Origin: Acrasis kona
Lineage: Eukaryota > Heterolobosea > Eutetramitea > Acrasida > Acrasidae
Assembly (NCBI GenBank): GCA_026419775.2
Contig: JAOPGA020000837.1
Span: 1 to 33,396, forward strand
Direction of reading: 5' to 3'
Length of the DNA: 33,396 bases
Made by a program: the position numbers and the translations under genes. Under the pieces are notes generated by a model. It was not told the DNA's origin, ran no database searches, and was given only the letters and a program-made list of their open reading frames with translations. This document shows, one piece after another, positions 1,014 through 30,240 of the stretch. How positions within the stretch are numbered: position 1 is the first letter of the stretch; every line of letters starts with the position of its first letter.

Positions 1014-1144
1014 GCGCAGGCATTATTTTTTACGAAACATAATTGTTTTCTACGAATAAAATAATCTTTTCTACGAAAATTATAATATGACCCTACTTGC
1101 ATTGAGAATAATGAATATCGACACCACATATGTTGTAAATATAC
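1014..1144 (+). repeat. Left TIR of the MULE
   Basis: Reverse complement of 4448-4580 with few differences. It holds three TACGAA hexamers at 1031, 1051 and 1072, spaced 20 and 21 bp apart (two helical turns), which is a plausible transposase binding array. Confidence 0.88.
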
Positions 1145-1331
1145 TCCAAACATATAGTAGAATAGGATGTTCACATAAAGAAAATAGCTAGTACAACTAC
1201 ATATGTTTTGTAAATTATTTGAATGTGAAGGCGCACTTTAGAAGAGTATACCGCCATGATCATGTGATTGTTAATCGACAATACACTGTAGTGATGACTA
1301 TGACGGTTTCCGTTAAAGTTTGTTCCCACTG

Positions 1332-1339
1332 TATAAAAG
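1332..1339 (+). promoter_or_regulatory. TATA box of the MULE transposase gene
   Basis: TATAAAAG lies about 32 bp upstream of the transposase ATG at 1372, inside the element. The same octamer precedes the short gene of the neighbouring element at 7120. Function is inferred from sequence and position. Confidence 0.5.
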
Positions 1340-1371
1340 CACGATGAAACTTTAAAACTTTTATAACAAGC

Positions 1372-4325
1372 ATGGCAGGGAGTCGGTATGTAAAGACCAG
1401 AAATGCTCTCCATTCCAATTGTTCTGAAGATGAAAGATCCGAAGAAGATGACATGTCGGATATTGGTTCAGATAGTGATATCAGCAGCGATAGCCTTGAC
1501 AACGAAGACAACAATGACCGTAGTTCCGACAACAACGGGAAGGACGAAAGTGATGAAGATGAAGATCCTTTGGTCAAAAGCAAGAGGTGGGACAAATCTG
1601 ATGAATGTGGCTGTAAGAAGTGCTCAGCTGACAGCGGACACTCTGGTTATTATGTCAATTCTAAGCTTCTTCAAGAATACAAGGATAACCGAAGGAAGAA
1701 AAAGTTCATGTTTCCAGAGTTGGGAGGAAAGAAAACAAGTCTTGCTTCAATGTCCGTCCATGAGATCCATCAGTTCCTCTACAAACATCCATTCTGCCAA
1801 TCACAGTGGTCTTGGACCAAACACACTCATTCTAAAAAAGTGATTGATGAACATGAAGTCAACAATACTCCCCTACCAGAGCCACCAATAAAGTCTGGAA
1901 AGTGTGACTACCTTCTTCCATTCCATCCCAAGTTGTTGTAAGGTTCAGACATCATACGGAATTTGTTTAGACAGAACATGCAAGTACTTTGGTGATTGTA
2001 CTGCAAGGCTACAAATCAAAACTAGTAGGAACAAAGAAGGTTAATGATATGCGAAATTATTGGTTCTGGTTCCCACTCACCATCCTTCCACCCCAAGTTG
2101 GACCTATTAAAAAAGTGCCCGGTTGTGAAGAACAAGGTCAAGAAATTGCTTTTGGAGGGCCATTCAAATTTTGATATCCAAACCACCTTAGTTGAGGAGT
2201 ACAAAAGGGACAAGGATACTTTGCTTGATGGTAGATTTGACTACTCCATTCCTGAGCTTACAAGCTACCGCCACCGCTTAAACAAGAANAAAAACAAAGC
2301 ACGGGACGTGCGATACGAAACCGCCATCCAAATACTTCAAAGCCTTTCAGATGAGGATGAGGATATTATTGTAATGGAGGAAGTCCATGGATTAAAAATA
2401 GAGGACATGACACCAGAAAATTATCAATTTGTCTTTATTTCAAAGAAAGAACTTGCAAAGTGTAGGGCTCAAATTAAAGAAATTGTTGGTGTTGATGCTG
2501 TATTCAAACTGTGTTGGGATGAATTAAAATCCAACCGTAGTGACCATAGTGTGCCTGTTCAAATTTGGACTGTGCAAGATAAAAATAAATGTACTCGTGT
2601 TCCTTTTGTTTCTATAACTTCTGTCCACAATTCCGAAAATCTAGAGTGTGTTATAAAAGGAATAGAGGATTACCTTCGGAACATGGTTGACCCAGTTTTA
2701 CAGGAGGGTGAAGAGTGGGATGTGACGTTTATGACAGACGACAGTGCTGTGGAGAAGCTTGGAACTCACCTTGCTGGGAAGAGAAACATCATCTGTGTTT
2801 TCCACATCAAACAAACCATCCAAAGATGGTTGAAGAGCAAGAGGAACAAAGTTGTATCCAAAGCTGACATAGATGAAGTAATGTTAATTGTTGCTCACAT
2901 GATTGCCTCAAAATCCAAAGCAGAGTACCTTGTCCACTATAAATTAATGAGGAAAGAGTTCAGAGCATTTGTTGACACTTACTTTAATCCAAACTGGCAC
3001 AACGTACAGCATGGAGAACCGTTTTACAATAAATGGACCTCTATCAACCGCCTCAGCTCTTATGGATTGTGGTACACTAACAACATTTGCGAGGCCAGGT
3101 TTAGGTAAGATTTTAATTGCTACGGTTGACTAATAAATAAAATAGGGTATGGGCGAGGATAAGAAGGTATGTCAAGCTGAATGCCTTGGATAAGCTTGTC
3201 CGTCAAGTGGTGTCCTTTATGAAAAACAAGGACTACAATGAACGGTTCAAACCCACATCTCGCCGCTCAAGATCGGACAGACATGCAAAGAAAAGACTTG
3301 ATGACGCCAGAAAAATTATGAGGAAGGGACTAAGGAAGTACTACACAATCAGGAGAGCTCGCAACGCTCCAGCATANGTTCACGAAGTAACCAATTTGAA
3401 GAATCGCTTCCAGTACCACACAGATGCAAGGAACTTTGATTGTTCATGTTCGGATTACCTATATGGTGGCGGAAAGCCCTGCAAACATCTCAACTTGCTT
3501 TGCTTGGACTATATAGACAAGAACAAGGTGGTTGTTGATATGAAGGATCCTGATGCTGTTCACAAAGTCCTTATGTCCCATTATTGGCCAGACCTAGTCA
3601 AAAGCCCACACACAGTGCACCTCCTAACAAATCCAAGAGCAGCCAAACGGTTAATGACCCCTGCAAGAGGTTATTCAAAAAGCCCCAACCGACAGAGACT
3701 TCTTGCTCAATTAAACACCAGGAATGTTGCAAAGAACATGGGTAGAGATGAAAGTGACGATGATGTTAACACGTCTCAAGAATCTATCAGCACAACTTTT
3801 GGAGGGGCCGACGTTTATAACGACTTGATGGACTTTGAAGCAAACAAAGATGATGCCGAGGAAGCAAACCCAACAGTGGGTGTTGGTCAGGTTGAGGAGG
3901 AACAAATTGACGCTGAAGATGCCAACTCAACAACACCAATTAAACGAAGACGAAGGCGATCTACCAACTTTTATGGCAACAAATTAAAAGTTGTAAAGAG
4001 GAAGGCCCCTGAGCAACAACAACACACTCCAAAGCGCAGGAAGGTTACAAATACACCAAACGCAACTGTTGATAGTGATCTAGTCACTATTGTGGACAAT
4101 GGTGTTGAATTAGGGGAGGCCACATTCATAGGAGACGAGTCACAATGGCACAACCAGCAGCTACCTAGGAAATATGGACTGTTTGGGATTACAAAAATTA
4201 TCTCAAGCGCCAATGTTGTTTTACCTCATCCTGAGCCTGGAATAGAGAAAAGAACATCATGGTCAGAGTTTCATGTAAATGATATGATTGGCCTTCCGCT
4301 TACTTGGATTCGTCTACGGAAATAA
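1372..4325 (+). pseudogene. MULE transposase (DDE, SWIM zinc finger), frame-broken
   Basis: Cut-and-paste transposase of the Mutator superfamily. Segments are 1372-~1936 (acidic N-terminus), ~1937-2040 in another frame, ~2041-3104, intron 3105-3145 (41 nt, GTAAGA...AATAG, with a CTAAT branch), and 3146-4325. The short middle frame encodes a Cys-bearing motif with CLDRTCKYFGDC, as in the zinc-binding N-terminus of MULE/FAR1-type proteins, so it was coding. The likely catalytic residues are Asp at 2494 (VDAVF), Asp at 2737 (MTDD) and Glu at 3091 (TNNICEA). HIKQ follows the second Asp, as expected. The SWIM motif CSCSDYLYGGGKPCKH is near 3440-3490. The C-terminus has Lys/Arg-rich stretches that look like nuclear localisation signals. 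N bases are at 2289 and 3377. Two frameshifts make this a pseudogene or a poorly sequenced copy. Confidence 0.85.
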
Positions 4326-4447
4326 ATTTATGTTTTGTTGCAACCCTTGTCTTTATTGTTTCTTTTATATGACAATTCACTCTGTAAGATAACCTTGTCT
4401 CAAGAGTTAAAGTTTCAATGTATCCAAGTACATTTTCTTGTTCTACT

Positions 4448-4580
4448 GTATATTTGCAACATATGTGTGGTGTCGATATTCATTATTCTCAATGCAAGTA
4501 GGGTCATATTATAATTTTCGTAGAAAAGATTATTTTATTCGTAGAAAACAATTATGTTTCGTAAAAAATAATGCCTGCGC
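4448..4580 (-). repeat. Right TIR of the MULE
   Basis: Inverted copy of 1014-1144, including the three TACGAA motifs in the opposite orientation. The outer end is TGCCTGCGC. The last matching bases are at 4580 and the sequence diverges after that. Confidence 0.88.
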
Positions 4581-4728
4581 ATATTTAAATCTTCTAATAC
4601 TAGCTATTGTCTCCATATTGAATTGGTTAAAAGTAATACTTGCTTTTCATGTTTACAAAAACCATGTTGTGCATGACGATGTGGTATACAGAAAAGATAC
4701 TTGTAACGGGCTTTTATATGTTGTAACG
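4581..4728. promoter_or_regulatory. Remnant of the intergenic region between the minus-strand gene and Dicer
   Basis: These 148 bp separate the two transposable elements and belong to neither. With both elements removed, the minus-strand ATG at 979 and the Dicer ATG at 7957 would lie about 190 bp apart, head to head. This stretch is therefore probably the original shared promoter. TTGTAACGGG occurs twice here, at 4701-4710 and 4721-4730; the second copy spans the edge of the inserted element. Confidence 0.5.
4720..4728 (+). repeat. Left 9-bp target-site duplication (GTTGTAACG)
   Basis: GTTGTAACG directly abuts the GGGAAATG terminus of the 3.2-kb element. An identical copy lies at 7940-7948 directly after the other terminus. 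An exact 9-bp direct repeat at both edges fixes the boundaries and indicates transposition. Confidence 0.9.
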
Positions 4729-5242
4729 GGGAAATGAAGTCAACCATACATCGTAGTATACAAGACATCATACATGACTAATAACACACTGCGTCCTATC
4801 AGGGATAAGAACCTGTTTAGGCCTGTCAGGGATAAGAACCTGTACAGAGGCTACTGGGATACGAACTAGTATGCTTAAAAGCCTATTGGGATACGAACCA
4901 ATACCTGTTTTTTCATTAAAAAAATCGCAACTGTAAAGATGTTAATCATTATCCTACATCATAGACTACTAATTAAACCTCTACTAACAAAATTACACTT
5001 ACATTACCGAAAGTTAACATTTCTTAAAAAATTAACATTATTATCTATCATACTAATAGACAAACAAAGATTTATCTTCAAAGAAACGAAACCACATTCA
5101 TATAAATACATTTTGAGAAATCCACACTATGAACAGAAATTTAAAAGTTTCATAACTCAATAAACAAAAACTAGTAATCGTGATACACATAAATACACAC
5201 ACACACACATAAATACAATAAAAATTTTTATTTTTCACATCT
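4729..5242 (+). repeat. Left long TIR of the GIY-YIG element
   Basis: Matches the reverse complement of 7416-7939. The 225-bp stretch 4939-5163 translates to the same 74 residues as its partner. Relative to the right arm it has about 12 extra bases near 4750 and lacks about 20 bases near 4903, including one of the internal 11-mers. The inner end is a (CA)n tract followed by TTTTTATTTTTCACATCT. Confidence 0.9.
4802..4898 (+). repeat. Four subterminal 11-mers GGGATAmGAAC in the left TIR
   Basis: GGGATAAGAAC at 4802 and 4829 and GGGATACGAAC at 4856 and 4888, all in the same orientation. Spacing is 27, 27 and 32 bp. Iterated short motifs inside TIRs commonly bind a transposase; that role is inferred here. 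Confidence 0.85.
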
Positions 5243-5389
5243 TCTCTAATTCATTCTTGATCACTACAAGTGTACAGTAAACTTTAAAAATAACTCATTA
5301 AAAATTTATAACCATATATATCACACTCCTAAATGTCTTCAAACGACAATAAATTTTTCGACAATTCTCAATAAAACCAAACACATCAC

Positions 5390-6238
5390 ATGACTAAACT
5401 TTCACGTACACACACTAAGGCTACTATCTATAAGGCATATCATGACAAAAACATTAAAAGTTTACTAAAGTCACATGCACACATAAAAGGATCAACTCTA
5501 CCCAAATATTGTAAAGACAACATAAAATACTGGAAAAGACTTGTATTATCACTCTATGACCAGAAATCACGCCCATTTCTACCCACTCCATCAGGTTTAA
5601 TGGAATACGGTGAATTCATCGACAAAACCAAATCATATCATAATAGGCTACATCTACATATGGATGCACATGTCAAGAAATTTAGAAACTACAAACCATT
5701 GGTTGAATCAAGTTATAAATTTTTGACAACATACGTTTGGGGTAAAAACCTTAAAATACCACAGTTCAACATGAAGCAATTAACCTTCTACTATAAACAT
5801 GAGGATGGAACTATCAGAGATAATACCCATACCGTAATAGAAGACAAAAACGTTTTAGAATGTGCCACTGCTTTGGAAAAAGTTATACCAATACAGGCAC
5901 AAACACAACAAACACTAAAAGACAAGTATGCACAATATGGTGTAATACAACATTTACCGGATGAGTATTACGCAGCATACATTGGTCAAGGTCTCACTAA
6001 ACGATGGGAAAAAGCATTCTCCACCACAAAGAAGACTCGCAAATGTTCAGACTCCTTTTACATCAACATAGTAGCGGCCAATTTAAACAAGGACAAAATG
6101 ATTCCGGGGGCTTTTATTATAGCCACCACAAATAACAAAAAGTTAAAGAAAACTCAAGAAAAGGTCCTTATTAACCAAGCTATGGAAAGAAAGGACAATT
6201 GGTTCAATAACATTTTTTTATTAAATAAAAGAACATGA
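5390..6238 (+). CDS. GIY-YIG-like nuclease gene A of the TIR element
   Basis: 282 aa, Lys-rich and basic, with its own ATG and a single uninterrupted frame. In the C-terminal third, YGVIQHLPDEYYAAYIG fits the GIY...YIG pair with normal spacing, followed by GLTKRWEKAF, which gives the expected Arg. A downstream KKTQEKVLINQ could supply the metal-binding Glu. The first ~190 residues match nothing I know and could be the DNA-binding part. The gene ends 15 bp before the convergent gene B. GIY-YIG domains cut DNA in homing endonucleases, UvrC and Penelope-like retroelements; a role in excision or integration of this element is inference. The domain call rests on motif reading alone. Confidence 0.6.
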   Translation: MTKLSRTHTKATIYKAYHDKNIKSLLKSHAHIKGSTLPKYCKDNIKYWKRLVLSLYDQKSRPFLPTPSGLMEYGEFIDKTKSYHNRLHLHMDAHVKKFRNYKPLVESSYKFLTTYVWGKNLKIPQFNMKQLTFYYKHEDGTIRDNTHTVIEDKNVLECATALEKVIPIQAQTQQTLKDKYAQYGVIQHLPDEYYAAYIGQGLTKRWEKAFSTTKKTRKCSDSFYINIVAANLNKDKMIPGAFIIATTNNKKLKKTQEKVLINQAMERKDNWFNNIFLLNKRT

Positions 6239-6253
6239 AAAACATCACCAATG

Positions 6254-6883
6254 TTAATTAATACGTTTATTAAACACAAGATACTCAACATCGGTAGTAT
6301 TCTCACATATCCCCACAAGCTGTTTCAAAAACTCCATTTCCCAAAATTCCGCCTCAGCCCGACTAACATGTTGACTCAACATTAGCACTTTATAATCAAA
6401 ACTAGGCCTGTCTTTCGAGAAAAGCAATAACAATTGACCGACATCATAATAAGTAGAGAGTAAATTATAACGATAGAAAATACGTTTAGGAGATTCACTA
6501 ACTCCAACATATAAACCAATAGTCGCATCATCCAACTCTTGTACCAGCAAATAGCAATATGGTTTGCATTTACCTACGGTATCCAAACTAAAATCAAAAG
6601 TAGAGTAACACATATCTTCCAACAAATTTGAAAAGTGCAAATACTTTGATGAATCTTCAACTGACTCATTACTAAAAGTTTTCCCATCATAATCGCGAGA
6701 ATACAACTCATTTCCTACTCTATACAAAAAAGATACTACATCAGTTTTCAAATTAAAAACTAAATTATCATCCTTGTAATAGGTCAATAACTTTTGAAAA
6801 TTTCTACGAAGAACAACAGATATCTCTTCTTCTTCATCAATCACAACCGTGTCGTTAGACAACACACAAAATGCCTTAGACAT
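6254..6883 (-). CDS. GIY-YIG-like nuclease gene B of the TIR element
   Basis: 209 aa on the minus strand, ATG at 6883, acidic overall and so unlike gene A. CYLLVQELDDATIGLYVG places a GIY-like strand before a YVG, then SESPKRIFYRYN gives the conserved Arg. RAEAEFWEMEFLKQL looks like the helix carrying the catalytic Glu. The N-terminal half is unrecognised. The gene is convergent with gene A and divergent from the 7170 ORF. Two different GIY-YIG-like proteins in one element would be unusual. One may be a nuclease and the other a partner or regulator, but nothing in the sequence decides this. A non-nuclease protein with chance motif resemblance remains possible. Confidence 0.55.
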   Translation of the reverse strand: MSKAFCVLSNDTVVIDEEEEISVVLRRNFQKLLTYYKDDNLVFNLKTDVVSFLYRVGNELYSRDYDGKTFSNESVEDSSKYLHFSNLLEDMCYSTFDFSLDTVGKCKPYCYLLVQELDDATIGLYVGVSESPKRIFYRYNLLSTYYDVGQLLLLFSKDRPSFDYKVLMLSQHVSRAEAEFWEMEFLKQLVGICENTTDVEYLVFNKRIN

Positions 6884-7119
6884 CTCAATATTTTAAATAA
6901 TTTCCATAAAAGTACTGGAATTCTATACATAGGAAATTATTTATACAAATATAGTCATACGACACAAAAATTGATAGTGCATCAGATCTCTAGAAGATCA
7001 CAAAACTGCATCTATTGAAAATTGAACAAACTAAGAATGCCGCCACACTCAAACAACATAAACCAATAGAAAAAATTTATTTTATTATTGAATTGACTAG
7101 ATATAACGACTAGTCTGGC

Positions 7120-7127
7120 TATAAAAG
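7120..7127 (+). promoter_or_regulatory. TATA box of the short element gene
   Basis: TATAAAAG is 43 bp upstream of the ATG at 7170 and identical to the motif before the MULE transposase gene. Confidence 0.45.
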
Positions 7128-7169
7128 CAAAGTTTACTTTGCTTGGACTTATTACCAATTGGAAACCAA

Positions 7170-7430
7170 ATGACCACTAAGACTACTACTACTACTACTA
7201 GTTTAAGCAACAACAACATCCATGAAGATGGTGAACAATCTCCACTGTTCGATGATCTCTCCTTACTGCAATTCTCTCAATTAGAGTCTACTCCACAAGG
7301 AGCATCCAACAATGAGGAAATGAAAGCTCTAGCCACTAAATTAGAGGCTAAGTATAGACACCAACTGAAGGTCGTATCCGAATTACAAACAAGTCTGCAA
7401 GAAGTAAAACTAAGCAGATGTGAAAAATAA
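7170..7430 (+). CDS. Small Thr-rich coiled-coil protein of the TIR element
   Basis: 86 aa from the ATG at 7170. An earlier in-frame start would have to be TTG, so I prefer this one. The N-terminus is a run of Thr encoded by ACT repeats. The C-terminal half (from EEMKALATKLEAKYRHQL) has regular hydrophobic spacing typical of a short coiled coil. The last five codons lie inside the right TIR, so the stop is supplied by the repeat. I recognise no family. A DNA-binding or dimerisation accessory role would fit but is a guess. Confidence 0.5.
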   Translation: MTTKTTTTTTSLSNNNIHEDGEQSPLFDDLSLLQFSQLESTPQGASNNEEMKALATKLEAKYRHQLKVVSELQTSLQEVKLSRCEK

Positions 7431-7939
7431 AAATTTTTATTGTATTTATGTGTGTGTGTGTGTATTTATGTGTATCACGATTACTAGTTTTTGTTTATTG
7501 AGTTATGAAACTTTTAAATTTCTGTTCATAGTGTGGATTTCTCAAAATGTATTTATATGAATGTGGTTTCGTTTCTTTGAAGATAAATCTTTGTTTGTCT
7601 ATTAGTATGATAGATAATAATGTTAATTTTTTAAGAAATGTTAACTTTCGGTAATGTAAGTGTAATTTTGTTAGTAGAGGTTTAATTAGTAGTCTATGAT
7701 GTAGGATAATGATTAACATCTTTACAGTTGCGATTTTTTTAATGAAAAAACAGGTTCGTATCCCTGATTTTCAGGTTATTGGTTCGTATCCCAATAGCCT
7801 TTTAAGCATACTAGTTCGTATCCCAGTAGCCTCTGTACAGGTTCTTATCCCTGACAGGCCTAAACAGGTTCTTATCCCTGATAGGACGCAGTGTGTTATT
7901 AGTCATGTATGATGTCTTGTATGGTTGACTCCATTTCCC
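7416..7939 (-). repeat. Right long TIR of the GIY-YIG element
   Basis: Inverted copy of 4729-5242, ending GGTTGACTCCATTTCCC. It is slightly longer because it keeps a fifth internal 11-mer. Its outer end is 17 bp upstream of the Dicer ATG. Confidence 0.9.
7754..7878 (-). repeat. Five subterminal 11-mers in the right TIR
   Basis: Minus-strand GGGATACGAAC or GGGATAAGAAC at 7754, 7782, 7814, 7841 and 7868, spaced 28, 32, 27 and 27 bp. The innermost copy (7754) has no counterpart in the left TIR, where the sequence is about 20 bp shorter. Confidence 0.85.
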
Positions 7940-7948
7940 GTTGTAACG
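7940..7948 (+). repeat. Right 9-bp target-site duplication (GTTGTAACG)
   Basis: Exact copy of 4720-4728, directly after the element terminus. Only 8 bp separate it from the Dicer ATG. Confidence 0.9.
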
Positions 7949-7956
7949 ATTGTTAA

Positions 7957-10900
7957 ATGAACTCAAACAAGAGAAAGCAGGATGACAGGCAATCAAAAGT
8001 TGTAGATGTTCACGATGGGAATGTGATCATAATAGGAGACACACCTACTAGAAACGACTACTTAGTATCTTATATCAAGCAGATTATAGACAGAGACGCA
8101 CACAGAAAAGTGTTCCTGCTATCAACAAGCAAAGACAAAGTTTCAGATTATGCCAACGCTATAACGGAGAGTGTACCAAACTGCCGCATAAGTGTATTCA
8201 CTGGTAGTGAGACCAAACTGGATATTGTTCAGACCACTCACCAACCGATTTTAAAGAAGATCAAATATACAATCAAGAGCAGTTCCGACGCATGGATCGA
8301 CCAAATAAAAAATAATGATGTATTAGTTACCACGGGTAAGTAATTTAAGTATAGTTAATTAATTCACAATTCCAGCCCCACTTTTTCAAGATATCCAGTC
8401 CAAGGGTTTTGTTCCAATTGAGTTGCTTGGAGCGATCATTATAGATGAATCAAACCTTTGTGTTGGAAAGCACCCATACAACAAAATCATTACCAGCTAC
8501 GCAGACTTAAACAAAGACCAACAACCAAGAATTCTTGGTTTGGCTGCAAAATCCGCATCAATCGATGCCACAAGATGGAAGACCAATATGCTATGTGAAG
8601 AAATCATTGACCAACTGCAAACAATTACTACATTTGATGAAACTGTAGAAGTGAGTGAAATAAATGGTATTGAGTGTTTTATCCATTCTTTGGGGGGACC
8701 AAACGACGTTTCACACGTTCTTGATAAAATTTATTCATCCATTACCATACCCAATCCAAGGACGATCTTTTTAACACATTCATCATCCTTAGCCAACAAG
8801 TACTACCAACTGACTCTCCAACAACATTCCAACCTAAAATGTCGTTGCGTGATAAACACAAAGAGCAAGGAAGCATTAGAGAAAGTCCCATCAGAACAAG
8901 TCACACAAGAGTTTATGGACCTGAGCTGCAATGTAGTATTTTGTACTGACATTTTTAACATGGACCTGCTTAAAGAATGTGACGTTCTAACATTTTCAGA
9001 TCGCAATACATACACAAGAACAATTACCAAACTAGTAGATTATACATCAAGAATCATTGTCATGGTAGACAGAGACAACAAGCAAGACCTAAAGTGGTCA
9101 ACCAACCCCTCACAAAAACCAAACAACAACAATGCGTTACTAGACAACCACTCACCTCAAGTCAAAACAACAAGAACCAAACCAAGCATACTTTATTGCA
9201 CTTTTAATCAATTCAGGGATCAAGCAGTAAATGGAAAAGGACTCTATCTTCATGTTATTAATTCCGACGACCCGCAAGACCCGACGAGATTAGGATACTT
9301 GACTCATCAAGAACTTTCACTGGACCAAGTACCTGGTCAATCACTTTTAAATGCGAAAAATAAATCAATCATCATGGATTCATCCATGATTTTTTCGGAA
9401 CTAAAACTCACTAACGAACAATTTAATGATTTAAAAATGTGTCATGACATGTTGCTTTCTATTTGTTTAAACACTTGCATTTCACAACCACTCTCCACAC
9501 AAGCAATGAATACTGTCAACAAGTACTATTTATATGTCCCTCTTGACTCCACGAAAACATCCATTGACTATCAAAATGTTTCTCAAATATTACAATTATA
9601 TCACTTGGGCCAACCACCATCACTACCAGTCAAGTCTATCCAACAAATCAACGAATACGTTGCCATCCCAAAATATGGAACAGACCCGAAAGTCTATGGA
9701 TCGTTGGGAAAGAACATTTACCTTGTAGAAAATGAAAGAAGTGACTTGAACATGCATTCAAGAGTTTATGATTCTCCACAGTCCTCTACTTTTGAGGAAT
9801 ATTACAAGAAGAAACATGGATTAGAGATGAGTAGTCAATCCATCATTTTGGATGTCCACCCAGTGCGTAAGAGTGTGAATGGACTTAATGTGAATCAATC
9901 ACAACCCATCAAGCCAATCATTGCTCAACGAATTTGCATGGAGTTTTGTCACTTTTATCCAATAAGTCATTTATTCCGTAGCATGGTCATGATGCCTTGC
10001 TTCATGTGGAGTTTGGAAATGAATTTAATTGCATTAGAATTGGGTCACTTGTTGAGGAGAAAACTACCAAAAGAGATATTCGTAAATGACAAGAACAAGG
10101 ATTTAAATTCACTTTTATTAAGAGCATTAATTAGTAAATCATCTCAATTGAATGAAAATTATGAAGTATTAGAGTTCTTGGGTGATGACTTGTTTAAACT
10201 TGTAACATGTTGGTCATTGTATCAAAATAAAGATTTATTATCGGAGGGTTACATGTCTCAACAAAAAAGTAGAATTGTGTCTAATCGTCATTTTTCTAAT
10301 GTGGCCGTTGACATTGGTCTTCAAGAATTTATGATTGCCGATAATGCTGCTCAATTGAATTACTCTGCTCCGTTTTTGAATTCTTCTGATGTGAATTGTG
10401 TGAGTGTTATTTTTGGCGAACAAAAAGATTCAACTTCCATGGCGGTCAGCACTTGTGGTCATTTGATATTGTATGAAAAAAATGTAGCAGATGTTGTGGA
10501 GGCTTTGATGGGTGCCATGTATGTTTATGGCGGTTTGAATGCTTGTTGTCATTTTGTAAATTACTTGAACATGAGGCAGGATATTAATGTAAGCTTGTTG
10601 TTGAGTAATGCGAACGTAATAAATCATCAAGATGTTTGGGACTATGTTCCCGTTGATTGTGGAGGTTTGACTGCTTCTGATGTTTTTTGTGGTGTTTGCT
10701 TAAATCATCAATATGAATTCAAAAATCCAGATTTGTTAAAATATGCATTGACACCTGGCGGTATTTTGTTTGAAAGGTTAGAATTTATTGGTGATGCTGT
10801 TCTTGACTTTATTTCCACAATCTTGTTGATGAAAAGTGTTGGTGATGACTCAACACCTGGTATATTGACCAATCTACGTGCGACCGCTACTTGCAATTAC

Positions 10901-11425
10901 ACATTTTCTATCATGTCCACCAGGCAGTCTTTCCATAAATATATTCCTGCCACCCAAACAAATAAAATTGAAAACTTTATCTTGACACATGGTGATGCAA
11001 TCGAAGATTGTGATTGGTATCCATTGGGACCAAGTGAAGAGGGACCAAAGATACTTGGTGATGTGTTTGAGGCTGTAGCTGGTGCCATCTTTATTGATTC
11101 TGGAATGGACGTCAATGCTGTTGCAACTGCTTATTCACAATGGATTGATGTGGTTAGATCAAAACTGAAGCCAGAAACGTTCAAGAACCATCCTGCCACC
11201 AAATTAATGATCATGTGCCAAGATGAAAAGTGTCAACAAAGCACGTTCGAATATCAACTACAAGATCCAGTCAAAAAGGCTATTTTCATGGTTCATGGTA
11301 AACAAGTTGGAGTGGGAACTGGACATAACAAGAAGAGTGCCCGAAGAGAAGCGAGTGCGAATGCATTGCAATTAATAGAGAAAGATGCTGTAACATTTTG
11401 GAAGATTTGTAATTGTTCACATTAA
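7957..11425 (+). CDS. Dicer-like ribonuclease III with degenerate helicase
   Basis: Exons 7957-8335 and 8376-11425 flank a 40-nt intron (GTAAGT...TTCCAG); the protein is 1,142 aa. It makes small RNAs from dsRNA. The N-terminal helicase fold is recognisable, but Walker A reads GDTPTRND instead of PTGSGKT. Motif II is DESN (150-153) instead of DECH, and the C-terminal helicase arginines are missing. GKHPYNKI and PRILGLAA still match Dicers. A PAZ-like segment (FEEYYKKKHGLE) is near 598. RNase IIIa starts near 720 (LEFLGDD, later ADVVEALMGAM) and IIIb near 920 (RLEFIGDAVLD, later LGDVFEAVAGAIF), so the catalytic acidic residues are present in both. A dsRNA-binding domain occupies about 1065-1130. 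The gene starts 8 bp after the target-site duplication of the GIY-YIG element, which has probably displaced its promoter. The fold assignment is firm; loss of ATPase activity is inferred. Confidence 0.93.
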
Positions 11426-29742: not shown

Positions 29743-30240
29743 GTGGAGCCACCACCTGAGCGTTGCCATTGGCAGAGATTCATCCCATATAATTCTGTGT
29801 CAAATGGGTTTGATCTAAAACCTAATGAGTTTGATGCCACAACACCAAACAATAGTAGTGGAGGTCCAATCAACATTGATAACGATACTCCATACAACTT
29901 CTACCGCCGCTTTTTAGATAATGAGGTTGTTGATCATTTTGTTGATAAAACTAACACTTATGAGGTGGAAAAAAATATTAAAGGAAGAGTGCATGTTGTG
30001 TCACGCTCATGCATTTTACTTTTTATTGGGGTTATCTTTGCAGCCAATCCCTGCTACAATGATTATTGGACAAAAAAAGCGCACTTGTTGTTTGGGAGTA
30101 GACTGATAAAATCAATTTGCACTCGCGAGTGGTTCAGAGCAACAAAACGAGCTTTCCATTGTGACATTGACTTTCTCATTGACAAAATCAATGAAAAGAA
30201 CAAAATGTATTGGCTGCCATTTATACAATGTGGTCAATAA
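29743..30240 (+). pseudogene. piggyBac transposase N-terminal fragment
   Basis: About 165 codons open to the stop at 30240, with no ATG. A TAG lies a few codons upstream, so the true start is missing. NDTPYNFYRRFLDNEVVDHF, VDKTNTY, IGVIFAANPCYNDYWTKKAH and CTREWFRATKRAFHCD follow the order of the N-terminal part of the piggyBac DDE domain. Full-length transposases are about 550 residues or more; everything after this segment, including most catalytic Asp residues, is absent. I did not find matching TIRs. It is a broken relic or a very short domesticated piece. Confidence 0.7.

Follow-up and report, generated by a model that had tools for sequence, protein, structure and literature searches.

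The 33,396-nt stretch of the Acrasis kona genome analysed here (contig JAOPGA020000837.1 of assembly GCA_026419775.2; hereafter the window) carries a mobile element that is an internally deleted foldback copy from a family of elements bearing a reverse transcriptase (RT). The parent layout, pieced together from several copies, runs from an inverted terminal repeat (ITR) through two convergent genes for GIY-YIG-like nucleases, A and B, to open reading frame (ORF) 1 and the RT gene, both in the orientation of A, and ends in a diverged inverted repeat. Insertion of family-1 elements occurs at a fixed octamer, GTTGTAAC, not at a random target, and the pairing of an RT with two GIY-YIG-like nucleases seems to define an undescribed retrotransposon family of this species. 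In the assembly used, which has 1021 contigs and 37.35 Mb, the window corresponds to contig C402, and all C-numbers below denote contigs of that assembly.

The window copy and its parent retroelement

An earlier note, made from the sequence of the window alone, had proposed long inverted arms, and these are present at 4729-5245 and 7413-7939, matching over 343 nt at 100% and a further 146 nt at 99%, or at 93% over 539 aligned columns. Its view of such ~500-bp repeats as the terminal repeats of the element has to be replaced by that of a foldback. A relative on C132 is collinear with the window over 5620-7303 at 99.5%, with shorter blocks up to 7416, and beyond the equivalent of 7416 runs on through ORF1, the RT gene and its own native right end. 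From 7414 to about 7917 the window holds instead an inverted left arm, 96-100% identical to seven other left arms, and its match to the native right end is confined to the last 22-30 bases; the sequence common to both sides is ~1 bp long at one foldback junction and 5 bp (TGTAT) at the other. Native arms measure ~230 bp at ~71% in C149, C326 and C550, each an internally deleted copy, and those of C9 are matched piecewise (89 bp at 81%). Because the C132 relative continues to its native right end and native arms are diverged, the near-perfect arms are a foldback of the window copy. This foldback may be a leftover of template switching at short homologies during reverse transcription. As the window copy has lost the RT gene and the greater part of ORF1, any movement of it would have to be in trans. 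At the start of C843 (L082, 1-2333) a separate foldback, with arms of 392 and 57 nt at 100%, encloses an RT ORF only, so that such foldbacks recur in the superfamily.

Both arms of the window copy contain hairpin-like repeats, four at 4795-4903 and five at 7748-7882, with a constant loop and with stems that vary but, by eye, stay complementary. Read on the reverse strand (GGTTCGTATCCC), they bear what we take to be a likeness to the tRNA T-arm or B-box; a tRNA-like identity was rejected after Rfam gave no match at E ≤1 in 4600-8100.

A genome search with the left arm gave 27 matches, comprising the two window arms, six nearly complete matches elsewhere and 19 partial ones, 12 of which cover only about the outermost 45 bp. 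A and B have 25 and 19 genome matches at E ≤1, diverged open copies being 20-34% identical to the window proteins within the alignments, and the convergent arrangement of the two genes is found also on C6, C770, C666 and C9. Past B, the copies on C770 (L075), C666 (L072) and C132 (L077, L081) continue with ORF1 and then the RT gene; the absence of an RT, as the earlier note had it, therefore does not extend to the family. ORF1 appears coiled-coil-like by eye and is broken in C666 and C132. The small coiled-coil gene proposed in the window does exist as an ORF at 7170-7430, its coiled coil likewise being read by eye only, and is a remnant of ORF1 rather than a complete gene.

The RT frame is uninterrupted in C770, C9 and C497 (the last at a contig edge). 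Its ORF of ~315 aa matches RVT_1 at E 1.7e-17 in C770 and 1.5e-17 in C666, and no further Pfam domain was found in it, RNase H, methyltransferase and protease being unrecognised. A profile of seven RTs gave 206 PDB matches at E ≤0.01, the best 60 of which are retroviral, Ty3-type and similar polyproteins. At the top stands an 'enzymatic polyprotein' (1.5e-14), presumably caulimovirid, followed by 'Peptidase A9/RT/RNase H' and Pr125Pol entries, which we take to be from foamy virus, and by Ty3 and retroviral RTs; no telomerase is among these best 60 of 206. The family RT would thus belong with the long terminal repeat (LTR) branch rather than with telomerase-like RTs, a placement by those 60 matches and not by a tree.

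A 99% copy of A lies on C497, and a 187-aa protein annotated in Acrasis kona is 99% identical to A in an alignment that covers 66% of the query. Protein profile searches, made with the RT and A and not with B, returned one Acrasis kona protein each and no other relatives, a result that depends on shared 5-residue words and could miss distant relatives. Two deleted copies have unusual internal joins: in the C149 180976 region (L033) the N-terminus of A adjoins the C-terminal end of the RT, and at C497 1-987 (L029) a C-terminal fragment of B overlaps the start of the RT.

A fixed insertion site

Among 26 ends matching the terminal 20-mer of the element, GTTGTAAC precedes all eight family-1 left ends read (C402, C149, C326, C341, C497, C911, C72 and C550). 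The outer left flank is common to C149 and C326 over 933 bp and to C497 and C911 over 589 bp, and the eight left ends therefore represent six independent left flanks. The right flanks of C149 and C326 differ despite their common left flank, reflecting either chimeric assembly or recombination, and the pair was counted as one left insertion. Apart from C550 right and C213 left, every one of the 26 ends has TTGTAA next to it in one orientation or the other (24/26), and the outer flank bases vary between subfamilies, as with TTTGTAAT at C666-type ends.

Empty sites were sought by running 12 of 20 prepared flanks against the genome. The C497 flank, octamer included, has four further matches at 83-85% (C872, C661, C113 and C64), and two of these paralogous sites (C872 and C64, 120 bases each) read CATA-GTTGTAAC-AGTTGTTATTG without the element, the filled C497 site reading CATA-GTTGTAAC-GGGAAATG. 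Since the octamer occurs once in the two paralogous empty sites and at all family-1 left ends, it precedes insertion and the target is fixed. The filled and empty sites also bear out the mobility that the earlier note had claimed.

The perfect 9-bp target-site duplication of that note survives in part, as the direct repeat GTTGTAACG does flank the window copy at 4720-4728 and 7940-7948. The ninth base, G, is present at seven of the eight family left ends and so goes with the left end of the element, its match at the right of the window copy looking coincidental; the shared flank is accordingly 8 bp, and a random 9-bp duplication is ruled out by the constant octamer at 8/8 left ends together with the empty sites. 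The octamer stands on both sides in three of the five copies with two ends read (C402, C149 and C326). As to whether other copies repeat the same genes and 9-bp duplications, the larger ones hold a further ORF, the RT, and the flanks of two of the five are unequal. One of these two is a 1.1-kb short copy with family ends at C213:38523-39645. At the ends of C9, a 10-bp direct repeat, TAAGGTAGTC, was seen by eye as a candidate flank.

Nucleases of the family and of its distant relatives

An alignment was made of 11 C-terminal domains from diverged copies, five of them from A and six from B. Y10, Y24, G26, E84 and N106 are invariant in all 11 domains, R32 is kept in ten, and a Q and an F column are each kept in 10/11; the Y, Y, G, R, E and N positions are those that we take to be the GIY-YIG signature (Tyr / Tyr-x-Gly / Arg / Glu / Asn). 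Profiles of A and B align with each other over the nuclease domain at 97.7% (E 2.5e-12). Judged by this conservation, A and B are probably GIY-YIG-like with the catalytic signature kept, and the two such genes on opposite strands that had been read in the window hold up, both as ORFs and by a signature retained in 11 diverged domains. Neither window protein has a Pfam match at E ≤1, and the three places listed by a genome search with PF01541 include no A or B gene. Between C9 and C317, B differs with a nonsynonymous divergence (dN) of 0.22 and a synonymous divergence (dS) of 1.00, and looks to be under constraint.

Three distant contigs (C33, C843 and C575) encode RTs 31-32% identical to that of C770, and RVT_1 is matched in the three distant copies at E 5.3e-16, 5.1e-12 and 1.9e-13. 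In C33 and C843 a protein with two HNH-like motifs lies directly upstream of ORF1-RT on the opposite strand, "ORF1" being named in the distant copies by position. The motif (Cys-Cys / D-R / N-V-x-P-C-C / C-N) has 14 invariant columns across the four repeats of these two contigs; the repeats weakly match PDB HNH proteins at E 0.005 and, in one of four, PF01844 at E 0.045, and the whole double-HNH-like proteins have no Pfam match. C575 carries a diverged GIY-YIG-like gene in the same position, recognised from its motif by eye and without a Pfam match. The type of nuclease thus seems to change between lineages while the RT and the position stay. The ends of the C575 copy (~3053-7482, L084) are in inverted orientation, TTGTAAAAGGG / TTTGTAAAACGGG, and AAACATT may be a 7-bp repeat of its flanks, in contrast to family 1 with its direct octamer.

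Association of the reverse transcriptase with other genes

All 127 genome RT matches were compared with matches to the nucleases, to the tyrosine recombinase (PF00589) and to rve (PF00665) on the same contig within 4 kb. The lists comprised 21 of 25 rows for A (the four weakest omitted), 19/19 for B, 20/20, 14/17 and 21/33 rows of further nuclease lists (omissions from the last lying on contigs already included) and the full PF00589 (61) and PF00665 (89) lists. RT rows include fragments of single copies, and row counts are therefore not element counts. The 35 strong rows (95 bits or more) comprise 11 with a GIY-YIG partner, five with HNH, none with a recombinase, one with rve (at 3.6 kb) and 18 with no partner, the nucleases lying 0-1.6 kb away. 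The 31 rows of 50-95 bits divide into four with GIY-YIG, two with HNH, one with a recombinase, two with rve and 22 with none, and the 61 rows below 50 bits into ten with rve, nine with a recombinase, three with HNH, two with GIY-YIG and 37 with none.

RT rows linked to a nuclease have neither a Pfam tyrosine recombinase nor an rve match at distances up to 4 kb. Some of the weak rows belong to resident elements of the DIRS and Ty3 types, and in this weak class recombinase-linked rows mostly outscore rve-linked ones. Seven of the 127 rows have an RNase H (PF00075) match within 4 kb, namely two fragments on the HNH-linked C625, one recombinase-linked row, no rve-linked row and four partnerless ones; its absence elsewhere carries no information, because the rve-linked (Ty3-type) rows are also without it.

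Proposed mechanism of integration and its alternatives

The best explanation of these observations, with a probability of roughly 0.6, is that the element's own nucleases cut the octamer and that reverse-transcribed DNA would then be inserted. The octamer is a quasi-palindrome, and A and B, or in relatives the double-HNH-like protein, would nick both of its strands; the LTR/DIRS-type RT would copy RNA into DNA, possibly after packaging of that RNA by the ORF1 protein; and the resulting DNA would join the break by target priming or by octamer microhomology. A broader proposal, which we put forward tentatively and at somewhat under even odds, is that of a new order of eukaryotic retrotransposons in which an RT of the LTR/DIRS branch, ITRs and self-encoded GIY-YIG pairs or tandem HNH nucleases cutting a fixed octamer are combined, with nuclease modules exchanged between lineages.

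A number of results weigh against cutting by the element's own nucleases. The octamer is exact at only four of seven family-1 right ends (C402, C149, C326 and C396), C132 having one change, C550 GTATACAAC, and C605 the octamer in opposite orientation with one change. Flanks are unequal in two of the five two-end copies, C550 (GTTGTAAC / GTATACAAC) and C213 (TTGTTAA / TTGTAAAA), whereas equal ones would be expected of a simple target-site duplication. No copy was read end to end with four intact genes and both octamers, and the RT frame is interrupted by two TGA codons in C132 and one TAA in C666. ORF1 similarity was found by BLASTP only between C770 and C666 (E 3e-23) and not among the distant copies. 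For the nuclease fold, LEM-3_GIY-YIG is matched below threshold in one of five A members (E 0.018) and PF01541, likewise below threshold, in one of six B members (E 0.11); PDB profile searches with A, B and the joint domain returned no nuclease or GIY-YIG entry, and AlphaFold models of A and B have mean pLDDT values of 36.3 and 38.8, too low for use. Other pairs of B and of RT have dN/dS of 0.27-0.65 where defined, at dS values (above 1.2 or saturated) too high for strong constraint to be read from them. Finally, about half of the strong RT rows (18/35) lack all four partners at distances up to 4 kb.

The unequal flanks of C550 and C213 would suit a DIRS-like parasite that borrows the tyrosine recombinase of resident DIRS-type elements for its circularisation and for integration by crossover between the octamer at the circle junction and that of the target, with the nucleases doing something else such as processing or homing. 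Resident tyrosine recombinases do lie ~1.5 kb from weak RT rows, mostly those outscoring the rve-linked rows. The joined ends of the element, moreover, would form inverted arms round an 8-bp asymmetric core, a layout that we take to be that of a recombinase site, and a core common to the element and its single-copy target is the product expected of such a crossover. A recombinase is found, however, within 4 kb of none of the 35 strong and one of the 31 mid-range RT rows, a search with the terminal 20-mer revealed no complementary region inside the element, and the constant place of nuclease genes that switch between GIY-YIG and HNH types suits a core role for them. Since no strong RT row lies near a recombinase while nucleases recur beside the RT, we regard integration by a recombinase in trans as unlikely.

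The long terminal inverted repeats and the 8-9-bp flanking repeat are, presumably, MULE-like, and the gene adjoining the element at 1372-4325 was read by eye as MULE-like from a sub-threshold SWIM match, its main ORF having no Pfam match. A MULE or other DDE transposon that had captured nuclease and RT genes and was moved by a transposase in trans is nevertheless quite improbable, as the flank is a fixed octamer rather than a random sequence and the three genes (RT, A and B) stay together in copies with no more than 20-43% identity. The inverted repeats of the neighbour (1014-1144 / 4447-4580) are also unlike the element ends, a comparison by eye and not by alignment. Among those ORFs of the window element and of larger copies that were run against Pfam, none matched a DDE domain, the genome not having been searched with a MULE model; this agrees with the earlier note in finding no known transposase, and the larger copies, where a DDE transposase might have been encountered, proved to hold an RT instead. 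That the RT is a mere neighbour, in a chance nest of unrelated genes from several mobile elements, is more improbable still. The assembly is fragmented into 1021 contigs, the genome is repeat-rich (16.8%, as given in the available part of PMC11589745), and the 18 partnerless strong RT rows would fit such nesting, but the order and spacing of A/B and RT are constant in the diverged copies on C770, C666, C132, C9, C38, C920, C317 and C603, and the copies have end sequences in common.

Comparison with known elements

Eukaryotic retrotransposons are sorted by their mode of integration, which relies on a DDE integrase, a tyrosine recombinase, an APE or REL endonuclease, or a GIY-YIG nuclease joined to a telomerase-like RT (in part after the available portions of PMC6681497 and PMC11167929). 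With DIRS-type elements, whose defining features were taken from the part of PMC3266345 at hand (where the status of Naegleria gruberi is left uncertain), the family shares an RT of the Ty3/DIRS branch (not a tree placement), ITRs and integration at a short fixed sequence. It differs in that strong and nuclease-linked RT rows have no tyrosine recombinase at distances up to 4 kb, in carrying two GIY-YIG-like genes (or an HNH-like one) instead, and in an RT ORF without recognised methyltransferase; RNase H was not recognised there either, but PF00075 also misses the Ty3-type elements of this genome. As for the internal complementary regions of DIRS-type elements, the terminal 20-mer, with up to three mismatches, was found only at the ends within the sequence blocks covered, a search in which shorter or more diverged regions could be missed.

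Endonuclease-bearing (EN+) Penelope-like elements likewise combine an RT and a GIY-YIG endonuclease in one retroelement. In them a telomerase-like RT and the nuclease form a single ORF (PMC11167929, in the part available), whereas the present RT matches retroviral and Ty3-type enzymes and each nuclease has a gene of its own, that of B on the strand opposite to the RT; the type of RT and the arrangement of the genes rule out membership, in line with the earlier note, which had already set the element apart from Penelope. The RT domain family is that of Ty3/LTR retrotransposons, from which the family differs by inverted rather than direct terminal repeats, no adjoining rve integrase and no recognised protease. 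Tlr elements of Tetrahymena, compared by their description in part of PMC1564403, are eukaryotic mobile elements that also encode a diverged GIY-YIG-domain protein, there described as one of 1405 aa with no RT partner. KolobokP is another eukaryotic transposon with an additional homing-type nuclease, but combines a DDE transposase with a His-Me finger homing nuclease, no RT being named in the part of PMC9587614 available.

The words reverse transcriptase, GIY-YIG and endonuclease are absent from the main text of the Acrasis kona genome paper (PMC11589745) by word search. The combination of RT and nuclease is not described in the available parts of the papers on VIPER/TATE (PMC6681497) and ALOG/DIRS (PMC3537659) or of the GIY-YIG survey (PMC1564403), and no description of such an element was found in the portion covered of the literature outside subscription journals and Repbase. 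If the proposed mechanism is correct, the integration module of retrotransposons would be replaceable by homing-type nucleases outside Penelope, here as an LTR-branch RT with separate GIY-YIG- or HNH-like genes and one octamer, and a poorly studied eukaryotic branch would provide a natural site-specific insertion system. Cutting of the octamer is directly testable with two small proteins.

Coordinates and neighbouring features

Table 1. Features of the window copy and its target, in window coordinates
Feature	Position	Strand	Remarks
Left target octamer GTTGTAAC	4720..4727	+	Flank read; paralogous empty sites; G at 4728 is part of the element end
Native left ITR	4728..5245	+	Includes four short hairpin-like repeats, loop GATA[AC]GAA, at 4795-4903
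ORF A, 282 aa	5390..6238	+	N-terminal region, then predicted C-terminal GIY-YIG-like nuclease domain (residues ~183-279)
ORF B, 209 aa	6254..6883	-	Second predicted GIY-YIG-like nuclease; convergent to A
ORF1 remnant	7170..7430	+	ATG at 7170, stop inside the right arm; coiled-coil-like by eye only
Inverted copy of left arm	7414..7917	-	Takes the place of the C-terminal part of ORF1, the RT gene and the native right arm
Native right-end tip	7918..7939	-	Retained outside the foldback; TGTAT (5 bp) common to both sides of the junction
Right target octamer GTTGTAAC	7940..7947	+	Flank read

The region at 1014-4580, to the left of the element, contains ORFs at 1372-1941, 2044-3108 and 3186-4325, the last with the sub-threshold SWIM match; this gene set, read by eye as MULE-like, is enclosed by its inverted repeats at 97.7% identity. 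On the other side a Dicer-like gene (7957-11425) adjoins the insertion. It has a pair of RNase III domains and weak matches to PAZ and dsRNA-binding domains, and by eye also a helicase-like region with DESN as its DECH-type motif. Between the element end and the first ATG of ORF 7957-8343, in this Dicer-like region, there are 17 bp. Farther along, at 29743-30240, lies a transposase fragment (DDE_Tnp_1_7, E 2.3e-6).

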